A DNA stretch of 64,000 nucleotides, taken from Nocardioidaceae bacterium. GTDB lineage: Bacteria; Actinomycetota; Actinomycetes; Propionibacteriales; Nocardioidaceae. Where the stretch lies: assembly GCA_030447865.1 (NCBI GenBank), contig JAUJOD010000002.1, positions 582,473 through 646,472 on the forward strand. The letters are read 5' to 3'. Positions 6,132 through 41,998 of this stretch are shown piece after piece (position 1 is the stretch's first letter; every line of letters starts with the position of its first letter). The notes below the pieces were generated by a model. It worked only from the letters and a program-made list of their open reading frames with translations. It made no database searches and was not told the DNA's origin. The position numbers and the translations under genes are program-made.

Positions 6132-8002
6132 CAGATCCCGCTCCCGATCGCCTCTTCGCGCAGCGCCCGACGATGGCTCTCCAGGGCGACCAGCTCACCG
6201 AACAACCGGTTGTAGTCAACAGTCTCCGTCACCGGGTTCATCCGTTGGAGGCGCGACTTCACCTGGGCGATGCGGCGCAGCGCGGTCAGCTCGCGCAGCC
6301 GCACGACGTACGCGCCGACCAGGCGGGCGTCTGGCTCCCCGGACACCTCCAGCGGCTCCACCGACAGCGCCGACACCGTGCTGCGGGCATCGCCGGGAAC
6401 GGCGGCGGTCACCGCTTCCACCGTCGCCTCCGCTGGGCCGCCGCTGGCGGCGATCGCCGCGAACACGTCACGGTAGTAAGGGTGAGTGAAGTCCTCGAAC
6501 TCGAGTTCGGCGAAGTGTTCCGCTGTCGGCTTGGGATGCTGCAGAGCGAGCTTCAGCACGTCGCGTTCGATCGAGAACCGCCGCTCCCGCGGATCGGGTA
6601 CGTCGCGCGCTACCGGCGCCTCCCCCGACCCCGTCGGCGACGGGCCGCGAGTCGTGGCTGGGGAGACTCCCCGGCGGCCTGCTCGGCGGACCTCCGCGCG
6701 TACGTCGTCGACGTCGGCACCGACCATCCCGGCGAGCTCGCGGGCGAAGGCGTCGACCTTGGACTTATCGCGGACGCTTGCAACTAACCGGGCGGCCTCG
6801 CGAACGGCGTCGACCCGAGCATCGGCACGGTCGAGGTCGTAACGAGACACGACACTGCTCAGCACGAACCGGTAGAGCGGCACGCGGCGGGCGATCAGCT
6901 CACGCACGGCCGCATCGCCCTCAGCCAGCCGCAGATCGCAGGGGTCTCGCCCGTCAGGCTCCACGGCCACATAGGTCTGGCCCACGAACTGCTGATCGCC
7001 GGCGAACGCGCGCAGCGCCGCCTTCTGCCCCGCCTCGTCGCCGTCGAAGGTGAAGATGACCTCGCCACGGAACTCGTCGTGATCGAGCAGCAGCCGCCGC
7101 AGGACGCGGCCATGGTCGTCGCCGAACGCCGTGCCGCACGTCGCGACGGCCGTCTTCACCCCTGCCAGGTGGCAGGCCATCACGTCGGTGTAGCCCTCGA
7201 CCACCACCGCTTGGGAGCTGCGGGCGATCTCCTTGCGCGCCAGGTCAACGCCGTACAGCAGGTGGCTCTTCTTGTACAGCGGTGTCTCGGGGGTGTTCAG
7301 GTACTTCGCGTCGACCCGGTCGTCGTCGAACAGCCGGCGGGCACCGAACCCCACCACGTCGCCGGAAAGCTCGCGGATCGGCCACAGCAGCCGGCCCCGG
7401 AACCTGTCGTAGGGTCCGCGGTTGCTCTGCCCAACCAGCCCAGCGGTGACCGCGTCTCCGTCCTTGACTCCACGCTCGCGCAGATGGCGGAGCAACGCCT
7501 CACCGGTGCGCGGGGCGAAGCCGACGCCGAATATCGCTGCGGCGTCGCGGTCGAAGCCGCGCGAGCTGAGGAACTGCCGGCCTGGCTCAGCATCGGGGGA
7601 GTCGAGCTCGCGCTGGTAGAACTGTGCCGCGATGCGGTTCGCCTCGACCAGCCGGGTGCGCTGGCCGGGGTCGCGCCGAGGGCCCCGGGAGTCGTCGTCG
7701 ACGTATCGCAGTTGCACGCCGAAGCGACCCGCCAGCCGCTCGACCGCCTCGGTGAAGCCAACCCCCTCCACCTTCTGCACGAACGTGATGACGTCGCCGC
7801 CCTCCTGGCAGCCGAAGCAGTGGAAGAACCCGCGCGCCGGAGTGACGTGGAAGGAGGGGCTCTTCTCGTCGTGGAAGGGGCACAGACCCTTCAGTGAGCC
7901 GCTGCCGGCGGAGCGCAAGGTGACGTGGTCGGACACGACTTCGTCGATCCGCGCCCGCTCCCGCACCAAGGCGACGTCGTCGTCCTTGATGCGCCCAACC
8001 AC
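6131..8002 (-). CDS. dnaG: DNA primase DnaG
   Basis: Synthesises RNA primers at the replication fork. 623 residues from the GTG at 8002, giving the family-typical start V-G-R-I-K-D-D-D; an ATG at 8059 would add 19 residues overlapping dgt. The N-terminal CHC2 zinc finger is visible ([11 protein letters not shown] and [11 protein letters not shown]), followed by the TOPRIM catalytic region ([10 protein letters not shown], then [14 protein letters not shown] with the metal-binding DGD) and a helical C-terminus that should bind the DnaB helicase. The start lies ten bases after the dgt stop, so dgt and dnaG are probably one operon. Confidence 0.97.
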
Positions 8003-22596: not shown

Positions 22597-22600
22597 CCGC

Positions 22601-22656
22601 AAACTGGAACGTTCTTGCACTCCCCTGGCCCCTCGGGCTGCAAGATTGTTCCAGTA
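22601..22656. repeat. Hairpin repeat family A, copy 1
   Basis: Left arm AACTGGAACGTTCTTGCA and right arm TGCAAGATTGTTCCAG form a stem of about 16 base pairs with two or three mismatches in the middle and a GC-rich loop of about 20 bases. It fills the gap between uppS and recO. Two relatives lie at 24511-24567 and 25679-25735. Confidence 0.85.
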
Positions 22657-22710
22657 TGCGTAGTCAGCAGAGCCGGACGGCGCACGAGGCGCTGGGCGGT
22701 CACGGGCGCG

Positions 22711-23439
22711 TCACCGCTCGACGTGGACGAGCGAGCGGAGGCTGCGTTCCAGATGCCACTGCAGGTACGCCGCCACGACGCCACTTGCGGCCTTCCGGAA
22801 CCGCGGGTCAACCGCCTCCGCTGTCGGCCAGTCCCCCGCCAGCAGCGCGCCAAGCAGTACGACGGTCTCGGCCGCCGGAGTAGCAGCGCCGGGGACCCGG
22901 CATGAGCCGCACAGCATCCCTCCCGCGCCGGCGCTGAAGCTGCGGTGCGGCCCCGGCGCCCCACAGCGGGCGCACCCGCCGAAGGTCGGCGCATACCCCG
23001 CCACCGCCAGCGACCGCAGCAGGAACGAGTCGAGCACCAATGAACCGTCCCGCTCGCCACCGGCAAGCACCCGCAGCGCGCCGACCAGCAGCAGATACTG
23101 CTGCAACGCCGGCTCCAACTCCTCGACAACGAGCCGCTCGGCCGTCTCGAGCATGGCGGTGCCGGCGGTGTAGCGGGCGTAGTCGCCGCTGATCGCCTCT
23201 CCGAACGGCGACAGCGTCTCAGCCTGGGTGACGATGTCAAGGGTGCGCCCGCGGGCGAACTGCACGTCCACGTGCATGAACGGTTCGAGCCGGGCCCCGA
23301 ACTTCGACTTCGTACGGCGCACCCCCTTGCCCACCGCGCGGACCCGCCCGGTGTTGCGGGTCAGAAACGTGATGATCCGGTCAGCCTCGCCCAGTTTCTG
23401 AGTCCGTAGGACGACCGCCTCGTCCCGGTAGAGGTTCAC
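22711..23439 (-). CDS. recO: DNA repair protein RecO
   Basis: Loads RecA with RecF and RecR during recombinational repair. 242 residues from the GTG at 23439, which gives the family-typical N-terminus [11 protein letters not shown]; the frame further upstream is non-conserved. OB-fold part: [20 protein letters not shown] and [16 protein letters not shown]. The zinc-binding pairs CARCG and CGSC are present. CACAAT ends six bases before the GTG, so the start is likely leaderless. Confidence 0.93.
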
Positions 23440-23626
23440 CCAGCCATTGTGCCCGCGGCAGCGCCTACGCAGCGCCGGACAGCACCGGAAGCCAAGAGGC
23501 GGTTGTGAAGGCGGTCCGCCAACTTGAGCCAGCTGGTTGACAGGCTCAGCCAGCCTGACAGCGAGGTGAGCGTTGGACAGCCAATATCCGGCTGACACCG
23601 AAGGCAGTGACTGCAATGCTCGCGCC

Positions 23627-24490
23627 GTGACTGCATCAGCCCAACTGCTTGCGCTCGAGAACTACTACGACTCCGCACCCCGTGACCGTTCGCTGGTCGA
23701 GGAGATCGGTCCGTTCACATTGTTCGTCGCCACGTCTGGGTGGCCTTACTACGCGCGCCCCCGCCTCGAGTGGTCTCTAGCTCGATTTCCGGAAGGCGGG
23801 GCTCGACACCCGGCGACGGCGACGGTTGACGACGTACGGTCGGTGCTGTCGCGGCAACGTGAGCTTGGCGTGCCACGAGCGCTTGAGTGGGTGGACGAGG
23901 TGACGCCTGAGTTGGTCGAGGTGGTGCGCTCGGCCGGTGCCAGAGTTGAGGAGTGCCCACTTCTCGTGCTCGACGGCCCGCCAGTCGGCGCTGCTGGCGC
24001 TGCTCGGATGCTCGGCCCCGATGACCGAGCTGACATCACCACCGCGCAGGCGGCGATCGCGGTGAGCTTCGCGCACGGCGGTACGTCGACCGGCCCGGCC
24101 GGCTTAGAAGCGCGGGATCAGCAGGCACGGTCGCGTGATCTCGAACCGCTCGACCACCTTCAACCGCTCCTCGAGCGTCTCGCTGAGGGGAAGCTGCGAA
24201 TGGCGGCCGTGTCGGCGCCCGGCGCGCCGGACGCCGGTCCTGTCGGTGGCGGCAGCCATATCCCCGTTGGCAACGTGACCGAGATCGTTGGCGTCGGTGT
24301 GCTGCCGGCGTACCGTCGCCGCGGCCTCGCTGCCAACCTCACCTACGTACTTGCCCAAGACGCGCTGCAGCGCGGCGCGACCACCGTCTTTTGCTCGGCC
24401 CAGTCCGACGCCGTAGCCCGCGGCTATGCGGCGGTCGGCTTTCGGCGAGTCGGTACCGCCTGCATCGCGTCAATGGAGGCGCATCACTGA
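23627..24490 (+). CDS. GNAT-family N-acetyltransferase
   Basis: 287 residues from the GTG at 23627. The C-terminal half is a GNAT domain with the acetyl-CoA loop [20 protein letters not shown] and [20 protein letters not shown], ending [10 protein letters not shown]. The N-terminal half ([39 protein letters not shown]) is seen in an actinobacterial subgroup of unknown substrate. Transcribed divergently from recO. TGCAAT lies nine bases before the GTG. Confidence 0.85.
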
Positions 24491-24510
24491 AGCCAGGCGG
24501 CTCAGCACGC

Positions 24511-24567
24511 AAACTGGCACGTTTTTGCACCCTCAGCGCCTTCTTGACTGCAAGTCTGTTCCAGTTT
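24511..24567. repeat. Hairpin repeat family A, copy 2
   Basis: Left arm AAACTGGCACGTTTTTGCA and right arm TGCAAGTCTGTTCCAGTTT. The ends pair well (AAACTGG with CCAGTTT) but the middle is more mismatched than in copies 1 and 3. It begins 20 bases after the GNAT stop and may act as its 3' end. Confidence 0.8.
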
Positions 24568-24666
24568 GAGAGCCAAGAGTGGCCTGTACGTCGTCCCCCA
24601 CCCCACCCGTCAACCTCCTGTGGATAAGCGCCTCGCCAAGTTTGCCGTGCGGGTCACAGTTCTTCC

Positions 24667-25632
24667 ATGCACCGATGGAGCAGCCGGCTCAACCCACCTC
24701 CGAACGGCGTCGCGCCAATCGCATGGGGCACTGCCGCAGAACACGGCGTGACCACCGGCCGGTTGCGCGGGCCTGCATGGCGGAGGGCTAGCCACGGCTT
24801 GTACGTGCCATCCCACCTTCCGCTCGACCCACACCAGCGCATAGTCGAAGCAGCAGCGCTCCTCCCCTCGGGCGGTGCGTTGGGGGGATGGGCATCGGCG
24901 TACTGGCGGGGCGTCCGGCTCCTGGATGGGCAGGGCGCCTACGGCACACAGCCTGAGAACGTGCTGCTGTGCCTGGGGTACGGCGGCAGGGTCCGACCGC
25001 GCCCAGGGATTGACCTGTCTCGCGAGCGGCTGACGGCGAGCGACGTGGAAGTGATCCGATGCGTGCCATGCACCACCGCTCCACGGACCGCCTTCGACGG
25101 TGCACGTAAGGCCCGCTCACTGTACGACGCGGTGGTCTTCCTCGACATGATGCTGACCGCCTCGGCAGTCACCATGCCAGAACTTCACGCGTACTTCGGC
25201 GACGCGCGTGGGTGCCGCGGACTGTCGCTCGCCAAGCGTGCACTCTCGCTGGCGCAATGCGGCTCGCGTAGCCCACCGGAGACTCGGCTGCGGCTGATGT
25301 GGGTCGACGAACTCGGGTTCCCGACCCCTTTGCTGAACCGGTCAGTCTTCAGCCTTGATGGTCGGCTGCTAGGAATCCCGGACATCCTCGACGACGAGGC
25401 CGGCACGGTTTTGGAGTACGACGGCGATGAACACCGCGACATCAGCCAGCACACGGCCGACAACGCGCGGGAGGAACTCTTCGAAGACCATGGGCTGATT
25501 GTTTGCAGGGCCGGTCGCCTCGATCTGGGGCCTCGCAGGCCGCAAACGCTTCACCGGATGAGGAGGGCGCGGGCGCGCGGACTAGCCCGCGACCGGAACC
25601 TCGACCGTTGGATCCTGGAGCCTCCGTCGTGA
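24667..25632 (+). CDS. AbiEi-like winged helix plus Vsr/DUF559-like nuclease protein
   Basis: 321 residues. The N-terminus (PIAWGTAAEHGVTTGRLRGP, WRRASHGLYVPSHLP) resembles the winged-helix domain of AbiEi antitoxins. The C-terminus has a PD-(D/E)xK-like arrangement: ETRLRLMWVDELGF, LLGIPDILDDEAGTVLEYDG, then DEHRD and HGLIVCRAGRLDL, similar to Vsr/DUF559 endonucleases. Such two-part proteins are common and multi-copy in actinobacteria; their role (defence, toxin-antitoxin or other) is not established. No partner toxin is adjacent. It is flanked on both sides by family A hairpins. There is no Shine-Dalgarno sequence at the ATG. Confidence 0.75.
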   Translation: MHRWSSRLNPPPNGVAPIAWGTAAEHGVTTGRLRGPAWRRASHGLYVPSHLPLDPHQRIVEAAALLPSGGALGGWASAYWRGVRLLDGQGAYGTQPENVLLCLGYGGRVRPRPGIDLSRERLTASDVEVIRCVPCTTAPRTAFDGARKARSLYDAVVFLDMMLTASAVTMPELHAYFGDARGCRGLSLAKRALSLAQCGSRSPPETRLRLMWVDELGFPTPLLNRSVFSLDGRLLGIPDILDDEAGTVLEYDGDEHRDISQHTADNAREELFEDHGLIVCRAGRLDLGPRRPQTLHRMRRARARGLARDRNLDRWILEPPS

Positions 25633-25678
25633 TGGCAGTCGGCTCGCTTCAGAGGCCGCCGTACGCCAGCCCGGTCAC

Positions 25679-25735
25679 AAACTGGCACGTTCTTACACTC
25701 AAAACGGCGATGGGGGTGCAAGAACGTACCAGTTC
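25679..25735. repeat. Hairpin repeat family A, copy 3
   Basis: Left arm ACTGGCACGTTCTTACAC and right arm GTGCAAGAACGTACCAGT pair at 16 of 18 positions, the best stem of the three copies. The loop is about 18 bases. It lies between the nuclease-like gene and the second GNAT gene. Confidence 0.87.
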
Positions 25736-25782
25736 GGCGGTCGTACGCGTGGTTGACGGCGTTGCAAAGATGGGGAAATGAG

Positions 25783-26825: not shown

Positions 26826-26937
26826 CGACTTGTCAGTCTCCTGTCGGTCTATGGGTCGTCTACGTTCTGACAAGTCGGGGAGGGCACGGAGTTGTCAGTC
26901 TCCAGTCGGTCGATAGGTCGACTACGTTCTGACAAGT
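26826..26937. repeat. Hairpin repeat family B, two tandem copies (62-bp period)
   Basis: Copy 1 spans 26826-26877 with perfect 11-base arms CGACTTGTCAG and CTGACAAGTCG. Copy 2 begins 62 bases later (TTGTCAG at 26892, CTGACAA at 26929) and has an inner dyad around GTCGATAGGTCGAC. Both share the right-hand sequence TACGTTCTGACAAGTCG. They lie just after the GNAT stop. Relatives occur at 37423 and 40354. Confidence 0.9.
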
Positions 26938-40353: not shown

Positions 40354-40526
40354 GACTTGTCAGAACGTGTTCGACCTACAGACCGACTACGTTCTGACAA
40401 CTCTCGGGGTCGGCAAACCTGTCAGTCTCTACTCGACCCATAGGTCGACTACGTTCTGACAACTTTCGGGGTCGGCAAACCTGTCAGTCCCTACTCGAGC
40501 CATAGGTCGACTACGTTCTGACAGGT
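40354..40526. repeat. Hairpin repeat family B, three tandem copies (62-bp period)
   Basis: Copies begin at TGTCAG 40358, 40420 and 40482, exactly 62 bases apart. Copy 1 has 12-base perfect arms TTGTCAGAACGT and ACGTTCTGACAA. Copies 2 and 3 keep a TCGA(C/G)CCATAGGTCGA inner dyad. In copy 3 both outer bases have changed together (CTGTCAG with CTGACAG). The 20-base links between copies (CGGGGTCGGCAAAC) are conserved. They fill the gap between the DUF4870 remnant and hemW. Confidence 0.92.
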
Positions 40527-41822: not shown

Positions 41823-41969
41823 AGCGACCGTCTACCGCGACAACCCGGTAGACGTACGCCGGGGGCCGCTCGCAGCGACCGTCTACCGCGACAACCCGGT
41901 AAACGTACGCCGGGGGCCGCTCGCAGCGACCGTCTACCGCGACAACCCGGTAGACGTACGCCGGGGGCC
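41823..41969. repeat. 51-bp tandem repeat array, 2.9 copies, each with a hairpin
   Basis: Units start at 41823, 41874 and 41925; the third is cut at 45 bases. Each has arms GTCTACCG and CGGTAGAC around CGACAACC (first copy 41830-41853). Copy 2 has AAAC for AGAC, which still allows a G-U pair in RNA from the minus strand. The units are otherwise identical, so the array is young or homogenised. It lies between the acyl-CoA synthetase stop and the hemW promoter and ends about 40 bases before hemW. Confidence 0.93.
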
Positions 41970-41998
41970 CAGACAGGTGGGAGCCCAGCCCACAACGT

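Follow-up and report, generated by a model that had tools for sequence, protein, structure and literature searches.

The nuclease unit and its palindromes in the window

The DNA analysed here (the window) is a 64,000-nucleotide stretch of the 3.1-Mb genome of a Nocardioidaceae bacterium (G000:C2:582473-646472), and our subject is a small unit within it, composed of a nuclease-like gene and the palindromes at its two ends. A preliminary description had pointed out three hairpins in this part of the window, all of which proved real. Each is a 53-nt palindrome with a 17-nt arm, a 19-nt middle and a second 17-nt arm; the arms read ACTGG(A/C)ACGTTCTTGCA ... TGCAAGANNGTNCCAGT and frequently extend to CGCAAACTGG...CCAGTTTGCG. 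Copy 1 (22598..22660, core 22603-22655) lies between recO and uppS and has no nuclease gene next to it. Copy 2 (24508..24569, core 24513-24565) and copy 3 (25676..25737, core 25681-25733) mark the left and right ends of the nuclease unit and, as first described, flank its gene (24667..25632, + strand, 321 amino acids). Between the left palindrome and the gene stands CCTGTGGATAA (24617..24627, + strand), a word of the TCCACAG type. The label 'two accessory genes' given to the enclosed DNA is not apt, since the core gene recO and a gene for a GNAT acetyltransferase fall within the span of the three copies as well. The genes adjoining the nuclease gene encode GNAT acetyltransferases; the other neighbours scanned were recO, uppS, fur and era, and no AbiEii toxin gene was found among the scanned neighbours.

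Identity to copy 1 was 74% for copy 2 and 70% for copy 3. Folded as single-stranded DNA, copies 1 and 3 beat 200 of 200 shuffles (z -6.0 and -4.4), and copy 2 proved degenerate (z -1.6), with 16 of 200 shuffles folding equally well. The shared 11-mer ACTGG(A/C)ACGTT alone, with two mismatches allowed, occurred no more often than by chance (30 matches versus 23.3 expected); the whole palindrome, unlike the 11-mer, exceeded chance in the genome. Searching with the arms at up to three mismatches yielded eight places in the window's own genome, and a covariance-model search, of the kind proposed in the preliminary description, returned 16 matches there, that is, eight places on both strands. The refuting outcome named beforehand, a lack of further copies, therefore did not occur. 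All eight places lie between likely genes according to our reading of mechanical open reading frame (ORF) lists, in agreement with the intergenic position reported before for the three copies. In G001, the second genome of the genus examined, the covariance model likewise found eight palindrome places. Five of the eight places in the window's genome have counterparts there (L011/L015, L009/L017, copy 2, copy 3 and L010/L151), and the other three were not comparable, the G001 assembly (70% complete) ending beside the C6 region and inside the recO gene next to copy 1. Arms are alike within the genus, but two positions are regularly mismatched.

The earlier suggestion of an unrecognised family resembling repetitive extragenic palindromes (REPs) held in part. 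More copies exist, and a gathering-score search of the window against Rfam gave no match at the palindromes and a single tRNA elsewhere. The expected partner, a REP-associated tyrosine transposase (RAYT), was not borne out: PF01797 had no match in the window's genome, and the same search was positive in 5 of 14 control genomes. The likely partner of the palindromes is instead the nuclease gene that they flank.

The protein encoded by this gene matched no Pfam (up to E 10) or NCBIfam entry, a PDB sequence search gave a single chance-level match (E 0.87), and the match to the PADLOC AbiEi model was weak (E 3e-7). Among 59 relatives, at E<=0.1, DUF559 matched ten (best 5.2e-5) and MTES_1575 seven (best 7.7e-4). 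An AlphaFold2 model was obtained with high scores (predicted local distance difference test 92.8, predicted template modelling score 0.90). Foldseek alone returned nothing at E<=0.001, and the fold matches rest on re-alignment of its list with VIA-align 2. Residues 202-307 were thereby placed on the catalytic domain of I-Bth0305I (Z 12.5, root-mean-square deviation (rmsd) 2.3, 95 residues) and on Vsr (Z 10.8), and residues 14-197 on AbiEi of S. agalactiae (6y8q; Z 9.8, 169 residues, rmsd 5.8). The protein is thus a predicted fusion of an AbiEi-like DNA-binding half (about residues 14-197) with a Vsr/I-Bth0305I-like nuclease half (about residues 202-307). Residues E205, D239, H256 and D265 are invariant in the 59 proteins and are probably catalytic; EDxHD is a name given to Vsr-fold nucleases. 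The D-H spacing of 17 resembles that of D51 and H69 in Vsr, as given in a passage of PMC11879112.

Palindromes at both ends of homologous nuclease genes

Of 149 genomes of the family, 17 contained matches to a covariance model built from 12 copies, and in the readable matches the outer arms differ while plan and size are common. We read 22 loci after this search, of which three (L028, L039 and L042) were clipped with no hairpin in view. Homologues of the nuclease were present in 58 of 61 family genomes. At the 29 loci of the closest homologues, our first set, 34 of 58 flanks carried a hairpin; more distant windows had one in 1 of 54 cases and shuffled flanks in 0 of 58. For a second set, we scanned one genome per GTDB species and obtained 74 loci, nearly all from Nocardioides or other Nocardioidaceae. 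Seven of these (L111, L136, L140, L142, L148, L149 and L150) were left out before counting because contig ends cut them or because the matches were short or distant. Of the remaining 67, at least 7 also belong to the first set. Hairpins were scored with our own script, whose thresholds were set after the first set. A score of at least 12 was reached in 111 of 133 flanks, versus 4 of 236 windows 1.5-2.9 kb away, and both flanks scored at least 11 at 54 of the 67 loci. Alike hairpins (at least 75% identity) on both sides were found at 51 of 67 nuclease genes and at none of 101 other genes of the same loci (ORFs of at least 200 amino acids, with a hairpin in 14 of 198 of their flanks).

The word CTGTGGA/TCCACAG, in either orientation, stands between the upstream hairpin and the gene at 61 of 67 loci, at a median distance of 20 bp from the hairpin. 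In the controls it occurred in 4 of 420 windows and at 1 of 101 control genes. A reading of the word as a DnaA box was set aside, as TTWTCCACA is present at only 13 of 67 loci, whereas CTGTGGA is the part common to 61. Palindrome, TCCACAG word, gene and palindrome thus recur as one unit, with a median length of about 1.27 kb (54 units).

Palindromes are more alike within a unit than between loci: median identity was 0.87 between the two palindromes of one gene and 0.64 between upstream palindromes of different loci, and the own downstream palindrome was the best match to the upstream one in 46 of 54 genes. Moreover, palindrome type follows nuclease lineage. Protein and hairpin identity correlated across 52 loci in a Mantel test that left out L144 and L145 (frame or stop), with rho 0.455, a value reached in 0 of 999 permutations, and rho stayed at 0.447 once pairs of at least 80% were dropped. 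Hairpin identity was 0.39-0.70 in eight pairs of cassettes (that is, units) from the same genome and 0.71-0.93 in eight orthologous pairs, both sets being hand-picked and L144 and L145 included. In the same vein, the window's genome encodes two nuclease homologues each flanked by a palindrome family of its own, the ACTGG type described here and, at L292, palindromes of the CGTCTACCG/CGGTAGACG type.

More distant genes show the arrangement less completely. In paralogues of about 30% identity (18 loci), a hairpin was called in 17 of 36 flanks and the TCCACAG word stood on one or the other side at 16 of 18 loci, a count made without a control of its own. The protein family was found in 60 of 198 genomes across the phylum. 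Outside the family, 29 loci were scored, and a hairpin was present in 21 of their 58 flanks, versus 1 of 58 control windows, with hairpins on both sides at 6 of 29 and the TCCACAG word rarer (5 of 29); these counts score as misses four loci with mis-set coordinates (L181, L186, L192 and L197), and some upstream windows are misplaced because gene starts were guessed as the first start codon of the open frame. Alike palindrome pairs occur there, for example at L177, L178 and L199.

Two observations on individual cassettes may be added. At L145:4001-4691, the nuclease frame is interrupted by a stop in the matched stretch and both palindromes are intact. At about position 3845 of L138, the gene preceding the cassette seems, from the reading frame, to take its stop codon from a TAG in the palindrome's foot (GGGTAGTCC).

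Dispersed palindromes and sites with or without a unit

Of 149 family genomes, 30 contained the pattern TAGTCCNNNACGN{18,46}CGTNNNGGACTA, with 1 to 38 occurrences each, and none contained its reversed control. Among 61 family genomes, the pattern was present in 7 of 33 with a homologue at E<1e-30 and in 0 of the 28 others. A slightly wider pattern found 25 copies in G029, all with the arm of that genome's cassette, TAGTCCGGCACG; in G043, it found 22 copies, of which 16 have the arm of the cassette there, TAGTCCCTGACG, and the other 6 have TAGTCCGTGACG. Palindromes numbered 1-43 per genome. Their length is narrowly set: 55 of 56 TAGTCC...GGACTA stretches in named loci measured 58-60 nt, though 37-82 were allowed. 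Among 28 listed copies of the 43 counted in G060, one measured 57 nt and three measured 48 nt, a shortening by roughly one helical turn. We also examined the arms for the unpaired GTAG or CGTC tag that REPs have at one end. Many Nocardioides arms start with GGTAGTCC, in which GTAG is paired with CTAC, and the arms in the window start with CAAACTGG. As side observations, three palindromes follow in a row at 149-bp spacing in G029:C1:4201765-4202122, the first two identical, and the hairpin loops of L066, L070, L139, G043 and G060, that is, the middles of otherwise unlike palindromes, often contain CGACACGCCG or its complement.

Whole units are present in some genomes and absent from others. At one place in the N. 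luteus/N. albus group, a unit is found in L122 and L138 and is absent from L145 and L121. At a second place, L145 and L121 carry another unit, with palindromes of type ATACGACGGGACG, which is absent from L122 and also from L138, where unrelated sequence stands instead. At both places, no more than about 40 bases separate the limits of the extra DNA from the palindromes, and no palindrome stands at the empty sites; the edges cannot be placed to the base because the spacers have diverged.

A site beside one conserved stretch offered a broader comparison. In the 90 genomes examined, of 118 matched, it held a cassette in 42, no hairpin in 27, some hairpin in 20 and a contig end in 1; of the 20 'solo hairpin' calls, we trust only L205 as a member of the TAGTCC family. 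Hairpins were called on both sides of 28 of the 42 cassettes (identity 0.83 versus 0.65). In a separate comparison of flanks for insertions or deletions of solo hairpins, 13 extra hairpins appeared, three of them like the own cassette (at least 0.75). One, at L123:3168-3226, is missing from L144, whose spacer is even shorter, and makes a weak case. Separately, an 85-nt palindromic element (GTTCACCGAG...CTCGGTGAAC) is present in L119 (about 6465-6560) and L130:6469-6553 and missing at the same place in L131.

Proposed role, alternatives and further features

We propose, with a probability of roughly 60%, that the nuclease whose gene lies between copies 2 and 3 has the hairpins as its cognate DNA sites and that gene and palindromes form one element, with binding, cutting and movement predicted from the comparisons above. 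It is likely that the palindromes have a dedicated enzyme, even though the idea of a RAYT fails for this genome. Passages of PMC7319586 describe AbiEi proteins as binding pairs of 23-bp inverted repeats and bending DNA. The AbiEi-like half of the present protein would bind both arms, which it might read as an inverted repeat in double-stranded DNA or, in the manner of RAYTs, as a hairpin in single-stranded DNA. The Vsr-like half would nick or cut at the palindromes; repair or copying could then spread palindromes and cassettes and keep them alike. Arms of 17-25 bp around a middle of fixed length and variable sequence would suit a pair of DNA-binding halves sitting on the duplex, each with its nuclease domain placed above the middle. 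In either mode the enzyme could cut at its own sites and set off copying or conversion; this would account for copies that are dispersed and, within a genome, alike. Gene and palindromes would then be an analogue of RAYT and REP built on an unrelated enzyme.

Several results weigh against this proposal. Pairing covariation within the genus was not above that of shuffles. A hairpin call is missing at one or both ends in 13 of 67 loci and, at the shared site, on one or both sides of 14 of 42 cassettes; there, the own partner was the best match in only 16 of 28 unpicked cases, versus 15 of 17 in a hand-picked group. A third homologue in the window's genome, L291, has one weak hairpin only. The relative orientation of paired palindromes is variable (13 direct, 15 inverted, 26 tied), a count that also led us to reject the idea that the palindromes of a unit are always direct repeats. 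Presence or absence of units leaves gain and loss undistinguished. In 54 units, direct repeats flanking the outer edges did not clearly exceed those of shuffled partners (at least 4 nt in 7 of 54 versus 6%, at least 6 nt in 0 of 54), in a comparison for target-site duplication whose empty sites come from diverged species. Among 72,556 plasmid records and 50,697 phage records, the query protein L056 had no match. Finally, the rmsd of the AbiEi match is high, and the toxin MenT1 is a further structural match for residues 53-197 (Z 8.8).

The same arrangement might also be produced by a selfish homing-type nuclease for which the palindromes are only operator and ends. The enzyme itself would not spread palindromes, and solo palindromes would be scars of gene loss by recombination between palindromes, comparable to solo long terminal repeats. 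The catalytic half is indeed closest to a homing endonuclease, and L205 has a lone TAGTCC-family palindrome at the site that holds a cassette in 42 of 90 genomes. We nonetheless consider this account unlikely: solo copies far outnumber the cassettes seen (in G029, 3 of 25 palindromes are at a cassette; in G043, 2 of 16), the empty sites of L145, L121 and L122 have no palindrome, and the palindromes of a unit are often in opposite orientation, where recombination would leave the gene in place.

Another reading takes the palindromes as bidirectional transcription terminators or insulators, carried along by the gene and unrelated to the nuclease. It would account for intergenic position and strong stems, and at the shared site some species do have short-loop, GC-rich stems that look like terminators. 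However, a terminator search called no terminator-like site at the three copies, copies stand inside likely operons (recO-uppS here and infB-rbfA at L012:5103-5155, gene names read from ORFs), and sequence, beyond pairing, is matched at both gene ends (51 of 67 versus 0 of 101) and follows nuclease lineage. In view of the missing terminator-like sites and the likeness at both gene ends, we rejected terminators as the leading explanation and hold them to be quite improbable. We give equally little credence to a role in defence or as a toxin-antitoxin gene, in which the AbiEi-like half would use the palindromes for autoregulation and the dispersed copies would be operators of a regulon. AbiEi does autoregulate via paired inverted repeats, as passages of PMC7319586 state, and the weak PADLOC match points the same way; yet a downstream palindrome alike to the upstream one is also present, the scanned neighbours include no AbiEii gene, and palindrome pairs are fixed, with units present or absent as a whole.

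Among known systems, REP systems offer a close parallel. REPs are palindromic repeats of genome-specific sequence, often of several families per genome, with repeat-specific enzyme genes flanked by their own repeats (passages of PMC3733652 and PMC3116915). As in REPtrons (REP/REPIN with RAYT, or TnpA-REP), so far as these are described there, an enzyme gene is flanked by its own palindrome type and copies of the same type are dispersed. Unlike the Y1 HUH transposase of REPtrons, the enzyme here is a predicted AbiEi/Vsr-like fusion, and its palindromes are about 60 nt with a long middle, versus 20-40 bp for REPs. REPs also usually number hundreds per genome, versus 1-43 here. AbiEi antitoxins of type IV toxin-antitoxin systems resemble the N-terminal half of our protein, which aligns with 6y8q, and they bind paired inverted repeats according to PMC7319586; our protein differs in its nuclease fusion and in having no AbiEii toxin among the scanned neighbours. 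With I-Bth0305I and other Vsr-fold nucleases it shares the predicted catalytic half and the invariant E, D, H and D, but it carries an AbiEi-like half in addition, and its gene lies between palindromes; no intron or intein context was seen in the window. To our knowledge, such a fusion and such palindrome flanks have not been described for that family. TIRtrons, with their TIRYT genes, similarly combine an enzyme gene with flanking repeats that are also dispersed as families, as a passage of PMC3733652 has it; their enzyme is a tyrosine HUH transposase, whereas here a complete palindrome stands at each end.

Among the papers listed by searches of an open-access library, no title or abstract linked DUF559, AbiEi or Vsr-like genes with palindrome families, subscription papers and preprints being outside the search. 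On account of this result and the failed RAYT test, the unit may count as a separate kind; if the kind is defined only by palindromes with a dedicated enzyme, it would be a variant. We see an even chance that it represents a new class of bacterial element, in which a fusion of an AbiEi-type DNA reader with a Vsr-fold nuclease keeps and spreads a private population of palindromes, having evolved independently of RAYT and REP and being common in Nocardioidaceae and present in other actinobacterial families. If so, the REP/RAYT way of life would have arisen more than once, with a second, unrelated enzyme and its own palindromes, and a group of anonymous actinobacterial endonuclease-like genes would gain a role. 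The many enzyme and palindrome pairs of differing specificity would be directly testable at the bench.

Other parts of the window and of its counterpart in G001 hold further features. Three palindrome units of the CGTCTACCG/CGGTAGACG (L292) type stand at 51-bp spacing at 41829..41979, where no nuclease gene lies. Another palindrome family, with CTTGTCAG-like and CTGACAAG-like ends and GTCGACTACGTT middles, occupies 26829-26936 (two units) and 40354-40526 (three units), and no nuclease homologue was found beside these palindromes. A jump of the nuclease unit between G000 and G001 was considered and rejected: the locus is syntenic, with the right flank replaced in G001. There, at about 1100-6860 of L022, the stretch to the right of the downstream hairpin, which in the window holds the second GNAT gene, is swapped for other sequence, and a transposase-like fragment, presumably IS1380-like, starts at the hairpin edge.

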